This document shows, in pieces, positions 8,715-21,601 of a DNA stretch of 64,000 nucleotides. The first letter of the stretch is position 1; the number at the start of each line of letters is the position of its first letter. The position numbers were made by a program, and so were the translations under genes. Below the pieces are notes generated by a model. That model was not told where the DNA came from and made no database searches. It saw nothing but the letters and a program-made list of their open reading frames with translations. The stretch is from a virus, in IMG/VR virus record IMGVR_UViG_3300021976_000010, positions 1 to 64,000 of that record. One strand, given 5' to 3'.

Positions 8715-8908
8715 CGTCAGCAACGTGGACCAACGCCAGCGCCGAGCACATCATGGCAGACCTCACGACCATTGCGAGGGCTCTGTGGGAGCAGCACATC
8801 GACGAGAGTCGCAGAGTACGCCTGCTCATGATGAGCACGTCACCGCTCGCGTTGTGGCAGGTGTATCGCGCACCTCGCACGGGCAAGTCTAGGATCGTCG
8901 TCACGTGA
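8711..8908 (+). CDS. Hypothetical protein, 65 aa
   Basis: ATG 8711 overlaps the preceding stop and its own stop overlaps the terminase start (GTGA), so translation is coupled to the large subunit. The protein is helical, with a basic C-terminus (YRAPRTGKSRIVV). It may be a packaging accessory by position only. Confidence 0.6.
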   Translation: MTSATWTNASAEHIMADLTTIARALWEQHIDESRRVRLLMMSTSPLALWQVYRAPRTGKSRIVVT

Positions 8909-10440
8909 ACTTCCATCGCATGCCCGATGACTTCGGTGATCACGGCAAGCCCGGGCACAACTCGCAATACTACACGGAAGAGGATATCGACCTCATCGGG
9001 CAGAGCGCGGCCATCGAGGCTCGCTCGTCGCTGTGGGCATATCGACGGTTCATGGACCCCGAGCTGGTCATCGGCTGGTTCCCGCGCGCTATCAGCCTCG
9101 CTCTGCAAGAGTTCTATGACGACCTCGTCGCGGGCAAGCGGCCGAAGCTGATTCTCGAGGCACCACCTCAGCACGGCAAGACGCGCAACATACAGGACTT
9201 CCTTGCATGGGCAGCGGGGCAGAACCCTGACTTCAAGATGATATACGCCTCCTTCTCGTCCGATCTCGGTGTCGACGCGAACACCGCGATGCAGCGTCAG
9301 ATGGGAAGCGAGAAGTATGGGATGGTGTTCCCGGACACCATGATCGGTGCGCAGAACGTTGTCACGATCGCGAACCGCACCAAGCGTAATTCGAAGCTCA
9401 TCGAGTTCGACGGGCGCAAGGGCTACTTCCGCAACACCACGGTCAACGGGCAGATCACGGGTAAGACGCTGGACCTAGGCGTCATCGATGACCCTATCAA
9501 GGGCAGGGCCGAGGCCAGCTCGAAGCTCGTGCGCGACAAGGCATGGGCATGGCTCATGGACGACTTCTTCACGCGATTCACCGATCGCGCGGGAATGATA
9601 CTCATGGCTACTCGGTGGCACGTCGACGATCCCACGGGCAGGTTCATCAAGAAGTTTCCCGACGCCAAGGTGCTCAAGTTTCCGGCGCTGTCCACTCGCC
9701 TGAATCCCGAGCTCCCCCGCCCATACGACCTTCGACGGAAGCGGGGCGTGCCGCTGTTCCCGCAGTTCAAGTCCAAGACGTTCCTCATGGAGCGCAAGAA
9801 CGCGAGCACCATTGCTTCATGGGAGTCGCTCTACCAGCAATCGCCGATCATAGTCGGGGGAGGCATGTTCCCCCTCGACCGTATCAAGCTCACGAAGGTG
9901 ATGCCTGAGGACAAGCGTATCTTGAAGACGGTGCGATACTGGGACAAGGCGGGCACGCAAGACGGTGGAGCGTACACGGCTGGCATTCGCATGCACGTTA
10001 TCAAGGACGGTGGATGGCTCATCAGTGACGTCGTTCGCGATCAGTGGGGCGCGCTCGAGCGCGAGAATGTCATCAAGAACACTGCCGAGCAAGACGCGGC
10101 ACTGTTCGGCAAGATGAACGTTGAGATCTACACCGAGCAGGAGCCGGGTTCGGGCGGCAAGGAGAGCGCCGAGCGCACGATAGCGATGCTCGCGGGCTAT
10201 CTGGCGTATGCGAAGCGCGTGACTGGTTCAAAGGAGCTTCGTGCTGATCCGTATGCTGCGCAGTGGCAGGGCGGGAACATCAGCATGCTGGTGAGGCCGT
10301 GGAACGATGCTTTCCTCGACGAGCACGAGGCGTTTCCGAACTCGAAGTACAAAGATCAGGTTGACGGTGCGGCAGGTGCGTTCATGGAGTGCACCGGCAA
10401 TCAATACGCGTACGATACATCAATGGCATGGGCGGAGTAG
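8905..10440 (+). CDS. terL: Terminase large subunit
   Basis: This 511-residue DNA-packaging motor has a Walker A motif APPQHGKT at 86-93, Walker B LDLGVIDDP at 189-197 and a coupling motif MILMATRWH at 231-239. The RNase-H-fold nuclease follows, with RYWDKAGTQDGG (D347), an acidic YTEQEPGSGGK segment (E411, E413) and KYKDQVDGAAGAF (D484, D487). It cuts concatemers and pumps DNA into the prohead through the portal encoded next. The length is typical. GTG 8905 is the coupled start. Confidence 0.95.
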   Translation: MNFHRMPDDFGDHGKPGHNSQYYTEEDIDLIGQSAAIEARSSLWAYRRFMDPELVIGWFPRAISLALQEFYDDLVAGKRPKLILEAPPQHGKTRNIQDFLAWAAGQNPDFKMIYASFSSDLGVDANTAMQRQMGSEKYGMVFPDTMIGAQNVVTIANRTKRNSKLIEFDGRKGYFRNTTVNGQITGKTLDLGVIDDPIKGRAEASSKLVRDKAWAWLMDDFFTRFTDRAGMILMATRWHVDDPTGRFIKKFPDAKVLKFPALSTRLNPELPRPYDLRRKRGVPLFPQFKSKTFLMERKNASTIASWESLYQQSPIIVGGGMFPLDRIKLTKVMPEDKRILKTVRYWDKAGTQDGGAYTAGIRMHVIKDGGWLISDVVRDQWGALERENVIKNTAEQDAALFGKMNVEIYTEQEPGSGGKESAERTIAMLAGYLAYAKRVTGSKELRADPYAAQWQGGNISMLVRPWNDAFLDEHEAFPNSKYKDQVDGAAGAFMECTGNQYAYDTSMAWAE

Positions 10441-10442
10441 AG

Positions 10443-12680
10443 ATGGCGAAGAAATCAGGAGTTTCGCGCGTGGCCGCTGCGTCTACTCGCAGTGCCACAC
10501 GTGCAGCGGCCAAGACACTAGGCAACAGTCGCCCGCACAGCGCGACGAAGGACATGACCGACGGTCTGCAGAACCTCGTCACTGGCATGGGCACCGAGAA
10601 GGACAAGGCGTTCAGCACCACCTTCGCGTTCTCGCAGATGAACCGCGTCGAGCTCGACGCAGCGTATCGCTCCGACTGGATTGCGCGCAAGGCCGTTGAT
10701 ATCCCTGTCGACGACGCGACGCGTGAGTGGCGCGAGTGGCAGGCAGACCCCGACGAGGTCGAGGCGATCGAGACCATTGAGAAGGACCTCGCCATCCAGA
10801 TGAAGGTGCGAACGGCGATGCAGCGCGGCCGACTGTACGGGGGCGGCGGTCTCGTGCTCGGCATCAACGACGGGAAGCAGCCTGAAGAGGAGGTCGTGCT
10901 CGACGATCTCGATGAGGGCTGTCTCGAGTTCGTGCATGCGGTGTCGCGCTATGAGCTTCAGGCTGGCGAGATGGAGTGGGACGTACTCTCGCCCTACTAT
11001 GGTGAGCCGAAATACTACACGCAGAGCGGCAACGCGTCAGCGTCGCTGCGTCTGCACCCGTCGCGCGTGGTCCGCTTCATCGGAAACGAGATTCCTGATC
11101 CCGCGCTGGCGCAGGGCTGGGGCGACAGCATCATCCAGTCTGTGTACGACGCCATCATCGGGGCCGGCTCGGTTAACGCATCGCTCGTGCAGCTGATCGC
11201 CGAGGCCAAGCTCGACGTCATCAAGATACCGGGCCTGTCGCAGAACATCATGAACCCAGACTACGAGGCGAGGCTCAAGAAGCGTTTCAGCTTTGCCAAC
11301 GTATCGAAGTCCATCTTCGGTATTCTGCTGCTCGACAAGGAAGAAGAGTGGGAGCGCATCAAGGCCGAGTTCGCAGGCATGCCGGACGTGCAGAAGGTGT
11401 TCCTGCTCGTGGCGTGCGGTGCCGTCGACATACCTGCGACACGCTTCCTCGGTCAGTCGCCGGCAGGGCTGTCGTCTACCGGTGAAGGCGACCTTCGTAA
11501 CTACTACGACGGCGTCGGCTCCAAGCAGAAGAACGAGGTGCAGCCGACGCTCGTGCGGCTCGACGAGGTCCTCATTCGCAGTGCACTCGGCGCGATGCCG
11601 TCGTCTGGTGAGGGCGATCACGGTGACATCCACTACAATTGGCGGCCCCTGTGGCAGATGACGCCGGCAGAAAAGGCCACGGTTGCCAAGACCAAGGCAG
11701 AAACGTTCAAGGTTGATGTCGACGCGGGACTTATCAACGAGGTCGTGCTCAAGAAGGCTCGCGAGGCACAGCTCATCGAAGACGGCACCTATCCCGGGCT
11801 CCAAGCCATCATCGAAGACTTCGACGACGATCCCGATCTGGAGCAGGCCGCTATCGACGAGGAAGAGGCCGCCCGTCAGGCCGCCGAGATGCTGGCTCAA
11901 GGCGGCGCCCCCGCTTCAACCAACCCGGATGCATCAAATGCACAGAAGCAGATTGCAGGACCGCAGCCCAAGCTCCTCGCTTCGCCGACGAAGAAACCGC
12001 CGTCGAAGGGTGCGAAGAAGAGAGCGCCGAATGCCGCTGTTGACGCAATGGTGCGTCGCATGCAGGACGCGGTCACACCTCGCACGCTCTATGTTCGTCG
12101 CGACCTGATCAACCAGAAGGCGGTGAAGGCATGGGCCAAGAAGGCGGGCTTCAAGACGAGCCTCACTGACATGCACGTGACCATCGCGTACAGCAAGGAG
12201 CCGGTCGACTGGATTGCCATGGGCAACGACGGGTGGAGCGGCAACGAGAAGGGCACGCTCACGGTGAAAGCCGGGGGACCTCGCGTTCTCGAGAAGTTCG
12301 GCAGCGCAATTGTGCTGGCGTTCGCGAGCTCCGACTTGAGCTGGCGCTGGCGCGACATGAAGGACCGGGGTGCGTCGTGGTCATACGATGACTACACGCC
12401 ACACGTCACGATCACCTACGACGGTGGTGACATTGACTTCATGAGCCTCAAGGCGTACGACGGCGAGTTGGTGTTCGGCCCCGAGATCTTCGAGGAGATC
12501 AAGACCGGCTTCAACAACGAGGTTGACACCGTCGAGGACGGTCTGCACCACTCGCCTCGCGGGCAGTTCAGTGGCCGCTCGACCAGTGAGTTCGCACCAG
12601 ACGAGCATGATCAGGACGAGATGCATCGTCAGGCCAGCGGGCGCGCACGGCGTCCGCGCAAACCAGAGACGGAGGAATAG
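10443..12680 (+). CDS. Portal protein with C-terminal Acb1-like anti-CBASS phosphoesterase domain
   Basis: ATG 10443 follows GGAG by five bases. Residues about 60-470 form a DUF1073-type portal: RSDWIARKAVDIPVDDATREW, GRLYGGGGLVLG and TRFLGQSPAGLSSTGEGD are characteristic. An acidic, proline/lysine-rich linker leads to a domain at about 545-700 with two HxT motifs, MHVTIAYS (H578, T580) and PHVTITYD (H654, T656), the signature of 2H phosphoesterases. Acb1, first described in phage T4, has this fold and cleaves the cyclic nucleotides that activate CBASS defence; its database family includes portal-linked forms. Both catalytic motifs are intact. Whether the domain acts in the virion, in the cell after release, or is structural is unknown. 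Confidence 0.85.
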   Translation: MAKKSGVSRVAAASTRSATRAAAKTLGNSRPHSATKDMTDGLQNLVTGMGTEKDKAFSTTFAFSQMNRVELDAAYRSDWIARKAVDIPVDDATREWREWQADPDEVEAIETIEKDLAIQMKVRTAMQRGRLYGGGGLVLGINDGKQPEEEVVLDDLDEGCLEFVHAVSRYELQAGEMEWDVLSPYYGEPKYYTQSGNASASLRLHPSRVVRFIGNEIPDPALAQGWGDSIIQSVYDAIIGAGSVNASLVQLIAEAKLDVIKIPGLSQNIMNPDYEARLKKRFSFANVSKSIFGILLLDKEEEWERIKAEFAGMPDVQKVFLLVACGAVDIPATRFLGQSPAGLSSTGEGDLRNYYDGVGSKQKNEVQPTLVRLDEVLIRSALGAMPSSGEGDHGDIHYNWRPLWQMTPAEKATVAKTKAETFKVDVDAGLINEVVLKKAREAQLIEDGTYPGLQAIIEDFDDDPDLEQAAIDEEEAARQAAEMLAQGGAPASTNPDASNAQKQIAGPQPKLLASPTKKPPSKGAKKRAPNAAVDAMVRRMQDAVTPRTLYVRRDLINQKAVKAWAKKAGFKTSLTDMHVTIAYSKEPVDWIAMGNDGWSGNEKGTLTVKAGGPRVLEKFGSAIVLAFASSDLSWRWRDMKDRGASWSYDDYTPHVTITYDGGDIDFMSLKAYDGELVFGPEIFEEIKTGFNNEVDTVEDGLHHSPRGQFSGRSTSEFAPDEHDQDEMHRQASGRARRPRKPETEE

Positions 12681-14961: not shown

Positions 14962-15843
14962 ATGAAACTCTGGGCCTTCAACGACTCTCACGACTGGGGA
15001 ACCCAACTCGCGAGAGCTGCGCAGGCCCGGGGCCATGACGCGCACCTCTTCGAGAACCCGCGCGAACCAGACACTGGCAACGTGTTCATGCACATGCACC
15101 ATCAACCGCAGGTGCGTCTGCTTCACAAGCGGTGCATGGCCATCATGGCGATGCGCCCCGAGCTGAACCTGATACCGTCGTACCGTGCGTCGTGTCTGTT
15201 TGACGACAAGCTGGAACAGGCAAGGCAGCTCGCTCGATGGATGCCACGTACTCACGTGTTCTATTCACCGGGCGCGGCCAAGCGGTGGCTCGACCGTGGA
15301 ATGACGATACCGTTCGTGTCCAAGAGCTCAGAGGGAGAGAACTCGCACAATGTCCGGATCATCGCCAACCTCGAAGACGCGTACAAGGAAGTCCGATACG
15401 CCTTCAGCGACATCGGCATCAAGTGCCGTCACCAGCAAACGCAGCGCGGTTATCTGCTCTGGCAATCACACGTTGACAGCGAAGCTGAATACCGCGTTAT
15501 CGCTGTTGGACGTCAGCGTCTTATCCTCAGGCGAGAAGGTGGCGACGATCGGTCTGTGGCACAAGGTCAAGGGCAGCTTAGACCTGTCCTGAGGCTCGAC
15601 GTCGACGATCACACCGTCGAGCTGTACGCTCTCGCGAACCGCTTCTTCACCGAGGAGGGCATCAAGTGGGGTGCCGTCGACATGGTGCGCGGACCAGACG
15701 GCGGTTGGTTCGTGACCGGCTTCACGGTGCGATGGACGATGCACCACTACTACGAGTGTCCGTTTCTGTTCGACGAGCAGAAGCGGTGCGGCAACGATAT
15801 CTGGAATGTCCTACTGGACGAAATCGAAGCAGGAGCTATCTGA
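14962..15843 (+). CDS. ATP-grasp-like ligase, 293 aa
   Basis: The layout suggests an ATP-grasp enzyme of the RimK/glutathione-synthetase type. An N-terminal lobe (MKLWAFNDSHDWGTQLA) is followed by a lysine-containing strand IPFVSKSSEGENSHNVRII at about 116-134, which fits the ATP-holding loop. The acidic strand WGAVDMVRGPDGGWFVTGFT at about 236-255 fits the Mg-binding region, though the usual E.N pair appears as GFT.R here. Such enzymes join a carboxylate to an amine or thiol. Its stop overlaps the methyltransferase start. The unusual metal site lowers certainty. Confidence 0.55.
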   Translation: MKLWAFNDSHDWGTQLARAAQARGHDAHLFENPREPDTGNVFMHMHHQPQVRLLHKRCMAIMAMRPELNLIPSYRASCLFDDKLEQARQLARWMPRTHVFYSPGAAKRWLDRGMTIPFVSKSSEGENSHNVRIIANLEDAYKEVRYAFSDIGIKCRHQQTQRGYLLWQSHVDSEAEYRVIAVGRQRLILRREGGDDRSVAQGQGQLRPVLRLDVDDHTVELYALANRFFTEEGIKWGAVDMVRGPDGGWFVTGFTVRWTMHHYYECPFLFDEQKRCGNDIWNVLLDEIEAGAI

Positions 15844-16433
15844 TGGACCACTTCTACACGACGATACCGGGCTGGGCGGCGTTCAAGCAGACGTATATCG
15901 ACGTCGTGCGTGCGGCCCGGGGCGGCGAGCACTTCGTCGAGATCGGATCGTGGGCGGGCCGCAGTGCTGCGCTGATGGGCGTGGAAATCCACAATAGCGG
16001 CAAGCACATCACGTTCGACTGCATCGATCCATGGCTTGACGGCGGTGTGGACCTGCGCGACACTCAGCATCAAAAGCTGCTCAACACCGAGCAGGTGCCG
16101 CTGTTCGAGCAGTTCAAGCGCAACGTCGCGCCTGTGCTGCATCTGATCAATCCGATCCAGATGATGTCGCTGAACGCGGTCCAACTTTACTCCCCCGCTT
16201 CAATCGACTTCATCATGATCGACGGTGACCACACCTACGAAGCCGTGCGCGATGACATCGCGGCCTTCCTGCCAAAGATGAAGAAGGGCGGCATCATGGC
16301 AGGCGACGACTATGGATGGCCGGGGGTGCAGCGGGCCGTTCACGAGGTATTCGGCCCGCGCGTGCAGGTATTCGGTAAGGGTCATCCGAAGAACTACCGT
16401 CTGGGATCGCAGCATTGGCTGGTGAAGTTATGA
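15843..16433 (+). CDS. Class I SAM-dependent methyltransferase (Methyltransf_24-like), 196 aa
   Basis: ATG 15843 overlaps the ATP-grasp stop. FVEIGSWAGRSAALMGVEI (about 30-48) is the SAM-binding GxGxxG-like motif I, and ITFDCIDPWLDGG follows as motif II. SIDFIMIDGDHTYEAVRDD, then FLPKMKKGGIMAGDDY (about 120-160) is the acidic loop and strand typical of Methyltransf_24 and related sugar or antibiotic O-methyltransferases. In this cassette a sugar or an attached group is the likely target rather than a DNA base, since no DNA-recognition domain is present. Confidence 0.8.
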   Translation: MDHFYTTIPGWAAFKQTYIDVVRAARGGEHFVEIGSWAGRSAALMGVEIHNSGKHITFDCIDPWLDGGVDLRDTQHQKLLNTEQVPLFEQFKRNVAPVLHLINPIQMMSLNAVQLYSPASIDFIMIDGDHTYEAVRDDIAAFLPKMKKGGIMAGDDYGWPGVQRAVHEVFGPRVQVFGKGHPKNYRLGSQHWLVKL

Positions 16434-17128
16434 TCGCGACAGCTATCATCACGGCACCGCGCCCGCGCAATACGCTGTACGAGTCCATTCAGTCGTGGCG
16501 TCACGACGGCGGCTTCACGGGACCGTTGCTCGTGTGCTCAGACGCGATGCCCGGTATTCGCGGCACGCTGCTGAGCGTGCACGAGAACGTTCCGGCGCTC
16601 GGCAACATGCGAAACTGGAAACTCGCTCTCAGTATGTTGGTCTCGCAGGGAGACGACGAGTGGCTGATGGTGTGCGAAGATGACATAGTCTGGGCCAAGG
16701 GCGCACGTGATGCTCTCGATCGGGAGTTGCCCGCACTCAAGGAGAGCGTGACATTCTCGAGGGCAGGCGGCCTGTCGTTGTATCTGCCTCGTCGCCACAC
16801 GAAGAAGATGATGAGACTGCGCCCGGGCTGGCATGGCAGCGGGCTTCAGCAGGCTCACAAGACATGGGGCGCGCAGTGCATGGTGTTCTCGCGCGGGCAG
16901 GCGCTGGAGTTGCTCGGTGACCTGAAGTTCGGAGAGCTCACGAGCGATCTCACTCGCGACAAGAACATCGACGCGGTGTTCGGGCGCTGTATCAACGCGC
17001 GCGGCAAGGAAATCCTGTATCGGGTCCCCTGCCTCGTGAACCACACGCTGGGCGACGGCAACTCGTCGCTGGGCTACAGTGCGGACAGGCCGGACCTGCG
17101 CACTGACTACTGGACGGGGCGCGCATGA
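16430..17128 (+). CDS. GT-A-type glycosyltransferase, 232 aa
   Basis: ATG 16430 overlaps the preceding stop. The N-terminus IATAIITAPRPRNTLYESIQ is a nucleotide-sugar-binding strand-helix, and LMVCEDDIVW at about 83-92 supplies an acidic EDD metal-binding motif in place of DxD. HGSGLQQAHKTWGAQCMVFS forms the acceptor-side loop. The pattern fits phage GT2/GT25-like transferases. It lies second among the sugar genes in a tightly overlapping cassette. The donor and acceptor cannot be read from sequence. Confidence 0.7.
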   Translation: MIATAIITAPRPRNTLYESIQSWRHDGGFTGPLLVCSDAMPGIRGTLLSVHENVPALGNMRNWKLALSMLVSQGDDEWLMVCEDDIVWAKGARDALDRELPALKESVTFSRAGGLSLYLPRRHTKKMMRLRPGWHGSGLQQAHKTWGAQCMVFSRGQALELLGDLKFGELTSDLTRDKNIDAVFGRCINARGKEILYRVPCLVNHTLGDGNSSLGYSADRPDLRTDYWTGRA

Positions 17129-17853
17129 AACAGGTAACGCTGGTCTACGCCTTCTACGACAATGAAGAGATGCTTCTCCGTCATCTGGCGGAGTGGCATG
17201 AGTATTCATCGTTTGTGAAGACGCTCATCAAGATCATCATCGTGGATGACGCCAGTCCCAACGTGGTCGCGTCGGAGGTGGTCAACTTCTTTGGCTACAC
17301 GGGCGTCGATATTGCGGTGTATCGCGTGCAGAAGGACATCCCGTGGAATCAGGACGGGGCGCGCAATCTGGCGATGCAGGAGGCGCAGACTGAGTGGGTA
17401 TACATGACCGACATGGACCATCTTGTTCCAAGTGATCAGGTTGGTCGCATGCTGGGCTTCGTCGAGTACTGTGCGGTGACTGGTCACTACTACATGCCGG
17501 ATCAGCGCCTGACCAGCGGCGAGAGTGTGCACAGGCCACACCCGAATTCGTTCTTGATGCGAGTCGATGATTTCTGGGCGATGGGTGGGTATGACGAAGA
17601 CTTCGCAGGCTGGTACGGCTCAGACGGTAACTTCCGCAAGTGTGCGCGTGGCGCTGGCCTTGTCGAGCTGCCCATCGACGCATTCTACACCACGGTCTTC
17701 CGTTCGGAGGACATATTCGACGCGAACACCAAGCTCTCTCGCAAGGAGGGCTCGTTCTACGCGCCGCTGAACCAGAAGCTGAACGCCAAGCGCAAGGGGC
17801 CGCCGTACAAGGCGGTCAATCCTGTTCGCTTCGAATGGAAGAGGGAGCTATGA
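17125..17853 (+). CDS. GT2-family glycosyltransferase, 242 aa
   Basis: Starting in an ATGA overlap, the protein has IIIVDDASP at about 38-46, NQDGARNLAMQEA at 74-86 and TDMDH at 95-99 (the DxD metal site). GGYDEDFAGWYGSDGNF follows around 152-168, the GGxDE.F..W...D pattern of GT2 and GalNAc-transferase-like enzymes. It would transfer a sugar from an activated nucleotide donor. A C-terminal basic tail completes it. No membrane anchor is present, so it acts in the cytoplasm. Confidence 0.8.
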   Translation: MKQVTLVYAFYDNEEMLLRHLAEWHEYSSFVKTLIKIIIVDDASPNVVASEVVNFFGYTGVDIAVYRVQKDIPWNQDGARNLAMQEAQTEWVYMTDMDHLVPSDQVGRMLGFVEYCAVTGHYYMPDQRLTSGESVHRPHPNSFLMRVDDFWAMGGYDEDFAGWYGSDGNFRKCARGAGLVELPIDAFYTTVFRSEDIFDANTKLSRKEGSFYAPLNQKLNAKRKGPPYKAVNPVRFEWKREL

Positions 17854-18593
17854 GAACGCACATCGTCCTGTGGAAGTGGGGACAGGACAATATGATCGGT
17901 GACAGGCGCTACACGTACGAGCACGTCAACGTCATGAACGCCATGCTCCTTCGCAACACCGCGACGATGCAGCGCTCCCCCGTTCGTGTGGTCTGCGTGA
18001 CCGATGAACCGGGCGGTATCGACTGTGATACCTTCAGACTTTGGAGGGACGGCGATAATCTGGTGAACGCGACGAAGCCGACACTACCCTCGTGCTATCG
18101 CCGGCTGAAGCTCTACGACAGGGCCACTCAGCGGGACATGGGCATTGAAGCGGGGGACCGTGTCGTCAGTCTGGACCTCGACACTATCGTGTGCGGGGAC
18201 ATGCGCAGGATACTCGAGACGCAGGGCAGGTTCGTCGGGTGGAAGCTCGCAGGCACCTACCATCCCGAGGTTTACAACGGTTCGTTCCAGATGTTTACCG
18301 CTGGTGACCTCCAGCACATCTGGTCGAGCTTCGATCCGCAGACGTCGCCGCTCGCGGCGAAGCAGGATGGATGGCTGGGTTCTGATCAGGCGTGGCTCTC
18401 CATGAATCTGGTGGGCAAGGAGGGGAGCGTCGACGTGCCCTTTCCCGAGTTCGCGTCATACCCGCTGCATCTACGGATCAGCAGGGCTTTCACCGGCAAG
18501 CATCGGCTTGTCTTCTTTCACGGCCGCGTCAAGCCGTGGTCCACGCAGGCACAGGCTGACTCATCGTGGGTTCAGCGATATTGGAGACAGTGA
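17850..18593 (+). CDS. GT8-like glycosyltransferase, 247 aa
   Basis: ATG 17850 follows GAGGGAG. RVVCVTDEPGGID near residue 46 and the central VVSLDLDTIVCGD at about 104-116 carry the DxD of GT8-type glycosyltransferases. KLAGTYHPEVYNGSFQMFT is the conserved substrate loop and FFHGRVKPW near the end is the matching C-terminal H..G..KPW motif. It is the last gene of the ATP-grasp/methyltransferase/glycosyltransferase cassette and its stop abuts the protease start. Confidence 0.8.
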   Translation: MRTHIVLWKWGQDNMIGDRRYTYEHVNVMNAMLLRNTATMQRSPVRVVCVTDEPGGIDCDTFRLWRDGDNLVNATKPTLPSCYRRLKLYDRATQRDMGIEAGDRVVSLDLDTIVCGDMRRILETQGRFVGWKLAGTYHPEVYNGSFQMFTAGDLQHIWSSFDPQTSPLAAKQDGWLGSDQAWLSMNLVGKEGSVDVPFPEFASYPLHLRISRAFTGKHRLVFFHGRVKPWSTQAQADSSWVQRYWRQ

Positions 18594-20008
18594 TGTTCCA
18601 CTTTACAGACATGGTCATGGAGCTCGACGACGGGGCCAAGGTGCGCAAGACACAGGACGGGTATCTCGCGGCAATGCCGCGCGTTGCCCGCACCGGCATC
18701 CAGCTCTATCGCGGCTCCGAGCTCGGCATCAAGGACAAGGACATTGTCCGTATCTACCGCGCCCCGGAGGAGGTGTTCAAGGCTGATGCGATGAAGTCGT
18801 TCGCGGGCAAGCCTTTCACCGACGACCATCCGAAGAAGCCCGTGGACTCGAAGAGCTGGAAGGATGTCAGTCGCGGCATTGCTGGCGAAGACGTGCTTCG
18901 AGATGGTGAGTACGTGCGAGTTCCCATGGTTCTCATGGACGCTGGCATGGTGCGCAAGGTCGAGGGCGGCAAGATCCAGCTCTCGGCGGGCTACACTTGC
19001 GACATCGCGTGGGGCGAGGGCACCACGCCGACGGGCGAGACCTATGACGGCCGTCAGATCGACATTCGCGTGAATCACATCGCGGTCGTGGATCAGGCGC
19101 GCGGGGGCAGGGTACTGTCCATCGGTGACGCAGCAAAAGTTTCCAACGCCATCATGCTTGGCGTGAAAGCAATTCGGGCGGGAGAGGTCAACGACCTTGA
19201 CCCTCTCGACGGAGGGGCGGGCGCGGTGTGCCTGCTCGACACGGACTACCCGTTCTTGAAGGATGGGAAAGTGCATACTCGCGCTCTGCGGGATGCGAGG
19301 ACGGCAGCACTAGCAGCGGATGACACGAGCGGCCTGCTCGCCATCGACATGCTGTTGGAGTTGATTTCTGACAATGGCAACCAACGGAGAAAACCTGCCA
19401 TGAAGACGATGATTGTTGACGGTATCACCTGCGAAATGTCCGACACCGCCGTCGAGGTGGTGACCCGGGCACTCGCCAAGGCCGCCGACGCCTTCAACTT
19501 CGAAAAGAAGAAGGGCGAGGAGGAGGAAGAGAAAAAGAAGAAGGTCGAAAAGGACAGCGGCGAGGCGATCGCCAAGCTGACCACCGAGAATGCGACCAAG
19601 GATGCGGAGATCGCAACCCTGAAGTCGCAGCTCAAGGATTCGGCCCTCACGCCGGACAAGCTGGACGCGATGGTCAAGGATCGTCAGATCGTGGCCGACA
19701 AGGCGAAGGCCCTGCTTTCGACCGTTGTGGTCGATGGCAAGACCGTCGACGAGGTGATGCGTCAGGTGGTCGACGCCAAGCTCGGCGCCGTTGCCAAGGA
19801 CTGGAAGCCGGAGCAGGTGAAGGTGTCGTTCGACACCCTGACCGCTGGCGTGCAGGCCAAGGACAGCTCGGGCTTTGACGCTACCGCCCGCGCGTTCTCC
19901 ACGCCGCCGATCGGTGATGCGGCTGCGCAGTCCGAAAAGCGGTACGACAGCTATGACGCCAAGATCTCCAACGCTTGGAAGACCCCCGAGCCGGCGACTC
20001 GTCAGTAA
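18593..20008 (+). CDS. DUF2213-type prohead protease with scaffold-like C-terminus
   Basis: The 471-residue protein begins with a DUF2213 domain: QLYRGSELGIKDKDIVRIYR, SFAGKPFTDDHP at about 69-80 and LSAGYTCDIAWGEGTTPTG, ending in IRVNHIAVVDQARGG. This family is thought to be a capsid maturation protease. After about residue 270, a lysine/glutamate-rich coiled coil (KKKGEEEEEKKKKVEK) and helical repeats look like a scaffold region, so one protein may supply both roles. ATG 18593 follows GGAG. The position just before the capsid genes agrees. Confidence 0.8.
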   Translation: MFHFTDMVMELDDGAKVRKTQDGYLAAMPRVARTGIQLYRGSELGIKDKDIVRIYRAPEEVFKADAMKSFAGKPFTDDHPKKPVDSKSWKDVSRGIAGEDVLRDGEYVRVPMVLMDAGMVRKVEGGKIQLSAGYTCDIAWGEGTTPTGETYDGRQIDIRVNHIAVVDQARGGRVLSIGDAAKVSNAIMLGVKAIRAGEVNDLDPLDGGAGAVCLLDTDYPFLKDGKVHTRALRDARTAALAADDTSGLLAIDMLLELISDNGNQRRKPAMKTMIVDGITCEMSDTAVEVVTRALAKAADAFNFEKKKGEEEEEKKKKVEKDSGEAIAKLTTENATKDAEIATLKSQLKDSALTPDKLDAMVKDRQIVADKAKALLSTVVVDGKTVDEVMRQVVDAKLGAVAKDWKPEQVKVSFDTLTAGVQAKDSSGFDATARAFSTPPIGDAAAQSEKRYDSYDAKISNAWKTPEPATRQ

Positions 20009-20641: not shown

Positions 20642-21601
20642 ATGCGACGTCATATGGTCACTGACCAGCAGGCCATGGGATTTCTCGTTTCCCAGACTGC
20701 TCACATCGAGAGTCAGGTCGTCGAGATCCAGTATCCCGACATCCAGTACCCTGCTCTCATCCCGGTGGATACCTCCGCCAACGAGTGGGCCAAGTCCGTC
20801 TCTTACTACTCGCTGGACAAGGTCGGCAAGGCGAACTGGTTCCACCACACCGCCAAGGACATCCACATCGCCGACGTCGAGCGTGCACAGCACGAAGTCG
20901 GCGTCGAGATGGCCGACATCGGCTATCGCTGGACGCTCGAAGAGCTGGGTCAGGCGATGATGATCCCGGGTATGAACCTGTCCGCCGATCGGGCAGGTGC
21001 GGCCCGCCGTGCCTACGAAGAGTTCGTCGATGACGTGGCTCTTCGCGGCAAGGCGGAGAAGTCGATCTACGGGATCATGAACTATCCCGGGATCACCGCT
21101 GTCCTTGCGTCCAACGTCGGTGGCAACACCACGTGGGATGCCAAGACCGCGGACGAGATCCTCAAGGATGTCAACGATGCACTGACTGGCATGTACGTCA
21201 GCTCGCTCACGGTCGAGATCGCGGATACGATCTTGCTGCCCGTCGGCGCAATGACCATCATCGCCACGAAGCGCATTCCCGACACCACGATGACCGTTCT
21301 CCAGTTCTTGCTGGCGAACAACGTCTACTCGCACCAGACCGGTCGTCCGCTCACCATCCGCACTCTTCGCGGCTTGGAGACGGCAGGCCAGAACGGTTCG
21401 GGCCGCATGATCGCGTATCGTCGGGACCCGCAGGTCCTGAAGATGCACATCCCGATGACTCACAGGTTCCTGCCCGTCTGGCAGACCGGCCCGTTGGTCT
21501 TCGACGTTCCCGGCATCTTCCGTCTCGCTGGACTGGAAGTTCGGCGCCCGGGTGCGGTACGCTACGTCGACGGCATCCTCACTTCGGATGAGCTGTCGTA
21601 A
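20642..21601 (+). CDS. Major capsid protein (DUF2184-like), 319 aa
   Basis: TGAGGAAG precedes ATG 20642. The sequence VDTSANEWAKSVSYYSLDK, MADIGYRWTLEELGQAMMIPG, ARRAYEEFVDDVALRGKAEK and YGIMNYPGITAV matches what I recall of DUF2184 major capsid proteins with the HK97-like fold; the G..K..GI.NYPG segment is typical. It contains three or four long beta segments with a spine helix. It lies after the protease and decoration genes and is followed by the strongest intrinsic terminator in the operon, as expected for the most abundant product. Confidence 0.88.
   Translation: MRRHMVTDQQAMGFLVSQTAHIESQVVEIQYPDIQYPALIPVDTSANEWAKSVSYYSLDKVGKANWFHHTAKDIHIADVERAQHEVGVEMADIGYRWTLEELGQAMMIPGMNLSADRAGAARRAYEEFVDDVALRGKAEKSIYGIMNYPGITAVLASNVGGNTTWDAKTADEILKDVNDALTGMYVSSLTVEIADTILLPVGAMTIIATKRIPDTTMTVLQFLLANNVYSHQTGRPLTIRTLRGLETAGQNGSGRMIAYRRDPQVLKMHIPMTHRFLPVWQTGPLVFDVPGIFRLAGLEVRRPGAVRYVDGILTSDELS

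Follow-up and report, generated by a model that had tools for sequence, protein, structure and literature searches.

A predicted Acb1-type phosphodiesterase domain is an exchangeable tail of phage portal proteins

Why should a phage portal protein end in a 2H phosphoesterase domain of the Acb1 type, and where could such a domain act? The question is raised by one gene of the window analysed here, a stretch of 64,000 nucleotides taken from a viral record 76,974 bases long (Table 1). A sequence-only reading had described this gene as a DUF1073 portal fused to an Acb1-like 2H phosphoesterase with two intact HxT motifs 76 residues apart, and had proposed that the domain, if active on the portal, would be an anti-defence enzyme at the injection site, or that it may be released. 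The open reading frame lies where that reading placed it, and both motifs were found at the residues it named and with the same spacing. The ATG follows the terminase stop codon (10438-10440) by two bases, and no stop interrupts the frame before the one ending at 12680, so that the portal and the 2H domain form a single polypeptide. The portal assignment likewise held up in a Pfam profile search (Phage_portal_3, PF06381, also DUF1073/HI1409), which gave 323 bits against a cut-off of 33.8. In an AlphaFold2 model of the fusion, portal and Acb1 domain were predicted at fair to good confidence, and the C-terminal end past the Acb1 domain was disordered. On the 3′ side follow a head morphogenesis-like gene, a DUF2213 protease, the major head protein and a tape measure protein, and the fusion gene therefore belongs to an ordinary head module. 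Positions 14962-18593 (+), after the head morphogenesis gene and before that of the head protease, hold an unassigned 293-aa open reading frame, a methyltransferase gene (15666-16433) and three glycosyltransferase-like genes; sugar-modifying genes are an unusual insertion in a head module. A PADLOC search returned no match.

Table 1. Features of the portal-Acb1 locus, with positions in the 64,000-nucleotide window
Feature	Position	Strand	Basis
Terminase large subunit, adjoining the portal-Acb1 gene upstream	8905..10440	+	Pfam Terminase_6N/6C; PHROG 38, E 1.6e-63
Portal-Acb1 fusion protein, 745 aa	10443..12680	+	Translation; PHROG 146 (portal) covers residues 39-678
Portal domain, residues 70-423	10650..11711	+	PF06381, E 2.3e-96; TIGR01555 HI1409 family; 8hds Pam3 portal, Z 28.7
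Flexible linker, residues 487-529, predicted disordered	11901..12029	+	pLDDT <50
Acb1 2H phosphoesterase domain, residues 547-691	12081..12515	+	PF23474, E 5.7e-37; fold match to 7t26
Y550, equivalent to T4 Acb1 Y12 (base stacking)	12090..12092	+	Alignment; Y in 148/149 unique portal-fused domains
Catalytic motif 1, H578-V-T580, equivalent to T4 H44/T46	12174..12182	+	Alignment
Catalytic motif 2, H654-V-T656, equivalent to T4 H113/T115	12402..12410	+	Alignment
E681 (T4 E138), E684 (T4 E141, adenine contact), F690 (T4 W147, lid)	12483..12512	+	Alignment
DUF2213 head maturation protease	18566..20008	+	PHROG 530; PF09979, E 4.8e-50
Major head protein	20642..21601	+	PHROG 264, E 1.3e-89

The identity of the C-terminal domain as Acb1, also part of the earlier description, lies far beyond chance, with agreement between a Pfam match over the whole domain and a fold match. 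The Acb1 profile (PF23474) scored 127.1 bits against a curated cut-off of 27. With the AlphaFold2 model of the domain (pLDDT 88.4) as a Foldseek query, the best match was a solved Acb1 structure (7t26, E 1.4e-7); 7t26/7t27 were followed by a phosphodiesterase of Burkholderia phage BCSR5 and then by E. coli LigT. Compared with the full-length model, 7t26 aligned to residues 547-687 (Z 15.3, rmsd 2.2 angstrom, 128/137 residues, 30% identity). The BCSR5 structures (PDB 9q2y/9q2g, chains of 165 residues) were deposited as anti-CBASS protein Acb1 and match the domain less well in sequence than the solved Acb1 does; no accompanying paper was found in the literature searched. With known Acb1 (T4 gp57B; Erwinia phage FBB1, PDB 7t26/7t27) the domain has in common the 2H fold, the HxT/HxT tetrad, Y12, E138/E141 and the lid region, but T4 Acb1 is a free protein whereas Acb1 forms the tail of a portal here.

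We then compared the residues of the active site, with the numbering of T4 Acb1 checked on the T4 sequence against the available part of Hobbs et al. 2022 (PMC9117128), where Y12, W74, F107, E141 and W147 are given as base-contact residues. The fusion carries Y at Y12, Y at F107, E at E141 and F at W147; the W74 position reads F in one alignment and L in a larger one, its placement being unsure. Conservation was counted over 149 unique portal-fused domains, a set that leaves out two cases on PF06381 portals and the four fusions to proteases. H44 is H in 148 (one is unreadable), T46 and H113 are invariant (149/149 each), and the T115 position holds T in 122, S in 26 and M in 1, which leaves the second catalytic motif kept in 148 of the 149 copies. 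Because motif 1 was part of the search pattern for the second viral-contig scan and the bacterial scan, its conservation is partly due to the way loci were selected; motif 2 was in no search pattern, and its conservation therefore does not come from locus selection. As for the other positions, Y12 is kept in 148/149, E138 in 149/149 and E141 in 111/149, F107 is replaced by H, W or Y or kept as F in 147/149, and the W147 position holds W in 90, F in 12 and a gap in 32. Since portal-fused domains vary at the positions of F107, W74 and W147, their substrates may differ from those of T4 Acb1. The Acb1 domain evolves under strong purifying selection, with a median dN/dS of 0.067 compared to 0.096 for the portal (from 21 usable pairs out of 24 in each case). 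From sequence and model we predict, with high confidence, an active enzyme of the Acb1 type at the C-terminus. Its likely function is to cleave CBASS cyclic oligonucleotides, the best guess for a 2H domain of this kind in which the tetrad is intact and several positions that contact the substrate are kept.

Of 50,697 phage records searched by tblastn, 700 matched, 31 of them over at least 80% of the fusion protein, including phages of Rhizobium, Pseudomonas, Synechococcus and Aminobacter as well as Pam3. When the Acb1 domain alone served as the query, 855 phage records were matched, 37 of them with at least 80% cover of the domain, and most of the matches listed were T4-like. Loci, labelled below by L-numbers, were collected from viral contigs with the whole protein (80 loci), from viral contigs with 17 fused domains (80 loci) and from bacterial genomes with five such domains (73 loci); the scan with 17 domains picked up relatives of the portal-borne form in at least 579 stretches. 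An Acb1 open reading frame is present in 179 of 251 loci, three of these being free Acb1 proteins of T4 type added for comparison. Classified by profile and Pfam, 155 of the 179 sit on PF06381 portals, eight on PF04860 portals and six on Mu-type PF06074 portals. Four sit on head protease-type proteins, three of DUF2213 type and one with a Nudix-Acb1-S78_2 arrangement, and the remaining three are one broken frame, one split gene and one separate gene upstream of the portal (L095). These shares say nothing on Acb1 at large, because most of the loci came from searches with portal-borne queries. The three DUF2213 fusions are in prophages (L244, L246, L247) whose own portals carry no Acb1.

Several unusual architectures and damaged copies were seen among these loci. 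The Nudix-containing protein (L243:9314-12475) is 1054 aa long, and its S78_2 protease match is weak, barely over the cut-off. A portal, a prohead serine protease (S78) and Acb1 form a single polypeptide in L004 (509-2890), with equal spacing in L005. One portal ends in an ADP-ribosyltransferase domain (L012:3447-5648), a three-part protein runs from portal through Acb1 to ADP-ribosyltransferase (L119:2139-5636), and L165 has a PBECR3-like portal tail, below the cut-off. In L026 (6312-6728) and L027, which share one domain sequence, the second motif reads H-V-M, where the relative L028 has H-V-T; this copy is possibly inactivated. The broken frame (L251, Rhizobium mongolense USDA 1844) is short, 158 aa, which suggests decay in a prophage. 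In Synechococcus phage Yong-M3-232 (L090:158-2144), the annotation gives portal and Acb1 as two genes that overlap, and programmed frameshifting was considered; it was rejected because the near-identical Ssp-JY40 (L259) has an intact fusion and the split in L090 stems from a duplicated stretch of about 130 bases.

The Acb1 domain behaves as a swappable in-frame cassette of about 0.5 kb, present or absent among portals up to 98% identical. Many close relatives terminate a few residues past the portal domain. Rhizobium phage RHph_TM3_3_3 bears the tail, whereas its relative RHph_N28_2 lacks it and is naturally viable. A FastTree tree was built from 179 unique portals (133 with Acb1, 43 without, two with Acb1 separate and one with an ADP-ribosyltransferase), and 54 portals were left out (33 identical, 10 short, seven low-scoring and four truncated). 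On this tree, the presence of Acb1 requires at least 14 changes, and the closest differing pair, L014 with the domain and L072 without it, is 98.1% identical over 419 residues. At the DNA level, four of ten pairs (L014/L072, L013/L072, L013/L067 and L026/L024) showed clean indels of 479-502 versus 10-23 bases, in which identity runs to the end of the portal domain, is broken by an insert of about 0.5 kb and then resumes. The pair L012/L009 showed a similarly clean pattern for the ADP-ribosyltransferase tail; in the other five pairs, identity resumes later, diverges or does not resume within the available sequence. Near-identical Acb1 domains (dN 0.02-0.08) are found on very different portals (dN 0.55-0.57) in L201/L206, L231/L232 and L237/L249, and on a tree of the domain itself, a quick one with some long branches, carrier type needs at least four changes. 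Among 397 genomes drawn evenly from the rhizobial order, 13 had a PF06381 portal, four of them with an Acb1 tail. Seven PF06381 regions of this draw without Acb1 had no recognisable cassette on the portal tail; in one of them (L256), a DUF2213 protease bears an Acb1-like domain below the cut-off.

This modularity, together with selection on the active site, argues that the domain is an accessory enzyme rather than a structural part. Its covalent attachment to a structural protein would also suit an enzyme fold reused as a passive piece of the portal vertex, but that reading is highly improbable given portals up to 98% identical that lack the domain, catalytic residues that are kept with a median dN/dS of 0.07, and the absence of the domain from the Pam3 portal model. 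An enzyme with another task, one that opens 2′,3′-cyclic phosphates or ADP-ribose cyclic phosphate for RNA or NAD-derivative repair and leaves CBASS signals alone, also seems improbable. Enzymes of the 2H superfamily do perform such reactions, as stated in the available text of PMC9503650, LigT structures come next among the fold matches, and PHROG 755, named RNA ligase, matches the C-terminal domain. Against this, the solved Acb1 outranks LigT in both sequence and fold, the LigT-type and RNA-ligase Pfam families stay below their cut-offs (PF02834, 14.3 bits against 23.3; PF13563, 12.7 bits against 27), the base-stacking Y12 of Acb1 is kept in nearly every copy, and a repair enzyme would have no obvious reason to ride on a portal.

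Where the enzyme acts depends on the fate of the portal. In portals generally, the C-terminus faces the interior of the head, and after ejection the portal is left outside the cell as part of the empty particle. Since it remains with the particle, a domain still attached to it cannot act in a newly infected cell, but could do so in a late-infected one, where it is made. The proposed placing of the enzyme at the injection site thus finds no support in this anatomy, while the reading as an Acb1-type 2H domain is borne out, with its intact tetrad and several substrate-contact positions. Injection would be conceivable for a domain freed within the head, the DUF2213 protease cutting the linker, which would then enter with the DNA and clear signals from the first minutes. 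Both carriers, portal tail and head protease, sit inside the prohead, and in L004 a prohead protease domain lies between portal and Acb1, with equal spacing in L005. At most 12 copies would be available, however, and each, if folded, would need either to fit through the portal channel or to unfold. No cleavage site was identified. The Pam3 portal of a Pseudanabaena phage (PDB 8hds) is of the same family, also ends in an Acb1-like domain with both motifs, the second reading H-I-S, and is 35.9% identical overall to the fusion. In its structure 442 of 621 residues are modelled, the aligned range ends at chain residue 451 and the Acb1 domain (462-613) falls outside the deposited model, as cleavage would predict; a flexible tether fits equally well, and the missing part may reflect mobility or cleavage. 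The available part of Iyer et al. 2022 (PMC9503650) suggests injection for portal- and MuF-fused 2H domains and regards as injected the ADP-ribosyltransferase domain found here as a tail on the related portals L012 and L119. On balance, we consider a packaged and injected effector rather unlikely.

The same portion of Iyer et al. 2022 (PMC9503650) reports 2H domains fused to portals and proposes that they may counter SMODS signalling; architecture and purpose match those considered here, and both are thus already in print. It makes no mention of the presence and absence of the cassette, of three portal families or of Acb1 on DUF2213 proteases, and the literature searched, with subscription papers mostly outside it, held nothing on cassette behaviour, the spread over three portal families or Acb1-DUF2213 fusions. 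New here are the cassette behaviour, the three Pfam portal families, Acb1 on a head protease, the purifying selection and the conserved second motif.

We also looked for CBASS cyclases in the hosts. In a retrospective set of 50 prophage hosts (50 of the 73 loci), SMODS was over the cut-off in 14. For the 32 hosts assigned by name to the rhizobial order, the count was 10/32, compared to 15/199 and 38/397 in comparison genomes, an excess (Fisher p 0.0005 and 0.0012, respectively) that is not controlled for genome size. Control families were not raised in the prophage hosts (Methylase_S, 8/32 versus 76/199; Abi_2, 3/32 versus 11/199). In the even draw of 397 rhizobial-order genomes, however, none of the six genomes with Acb1 over the cut-off had a SMODS cyclase. 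The association is thus mixed, positive retrospectively and absent in the even draw, and no conclusion rests on it.

Building on the computed family, fold, catalytic residues, modularity and purifying selection, we infer a substrate, a timing and a benefit for the enzyme. The domain would be an Acb1-type cyclic-oligonucleotide phosphodiesterase, predicted to work and tethered to the portal through a disordered linker, an exchangeable accessory module that portal function would not need and that selection would maintain as a counter to a defence signalling by nucleotides (CBASS or a relative). As part of a late head protein, it would appear in the infected cell together with head proteins that some defences sense, and would probably clear the signal before effectors fire; the fusion would then be built into the head, with the domain mobile inside. 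We put the probability of a tethered accessory Acb1 acting against such a defence, as the whole explanation, at roughly 0.7, and lean slightly toward the late-infected cell, rather than injection, as its main site of action. A late supply would be the weaker strategy, since T4 Acb1 activity is early according to the available part of PMC11722364, unlike what is expected for a portal gene.

Head proteins are themselves triggers of immunity: an interaction between a CBASS sensor and a prohead protease is reported (PMC12409349, a review citing Richmond-Buccola 2024), and a dodecameric portal activates the SpbK NADase, portals also being sensed by some Avs systems (PMC12847820). This makes attractive the tentative idea of an antidote carried on the trigger, in which a signal-destroying cassette is attached to the very head proteins, portal or prohead protease, that set off nucleotide-signalling immunity, so that eraser and signal would appear together late in infection. 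The portal tail might then serve more generally as a site where cassettes for counter-defence or host takeover are attached (Acb1, ADP-ribosyltransferase, Acb1 with ADP-ribosyltransferase, or a PBECR3-like nuclease). We hold this whole reading, the antidote on the trigger included, as doubtful. With so many portal-borne stretches in viral contigs, likely anti-CBASS enzymes may lie unnoticed in large numbers within genes annotated just as portals. Natural pairs for testing when and where the enzyme acts are at hand in near-identical phages of which one has the cassette and the other does not.
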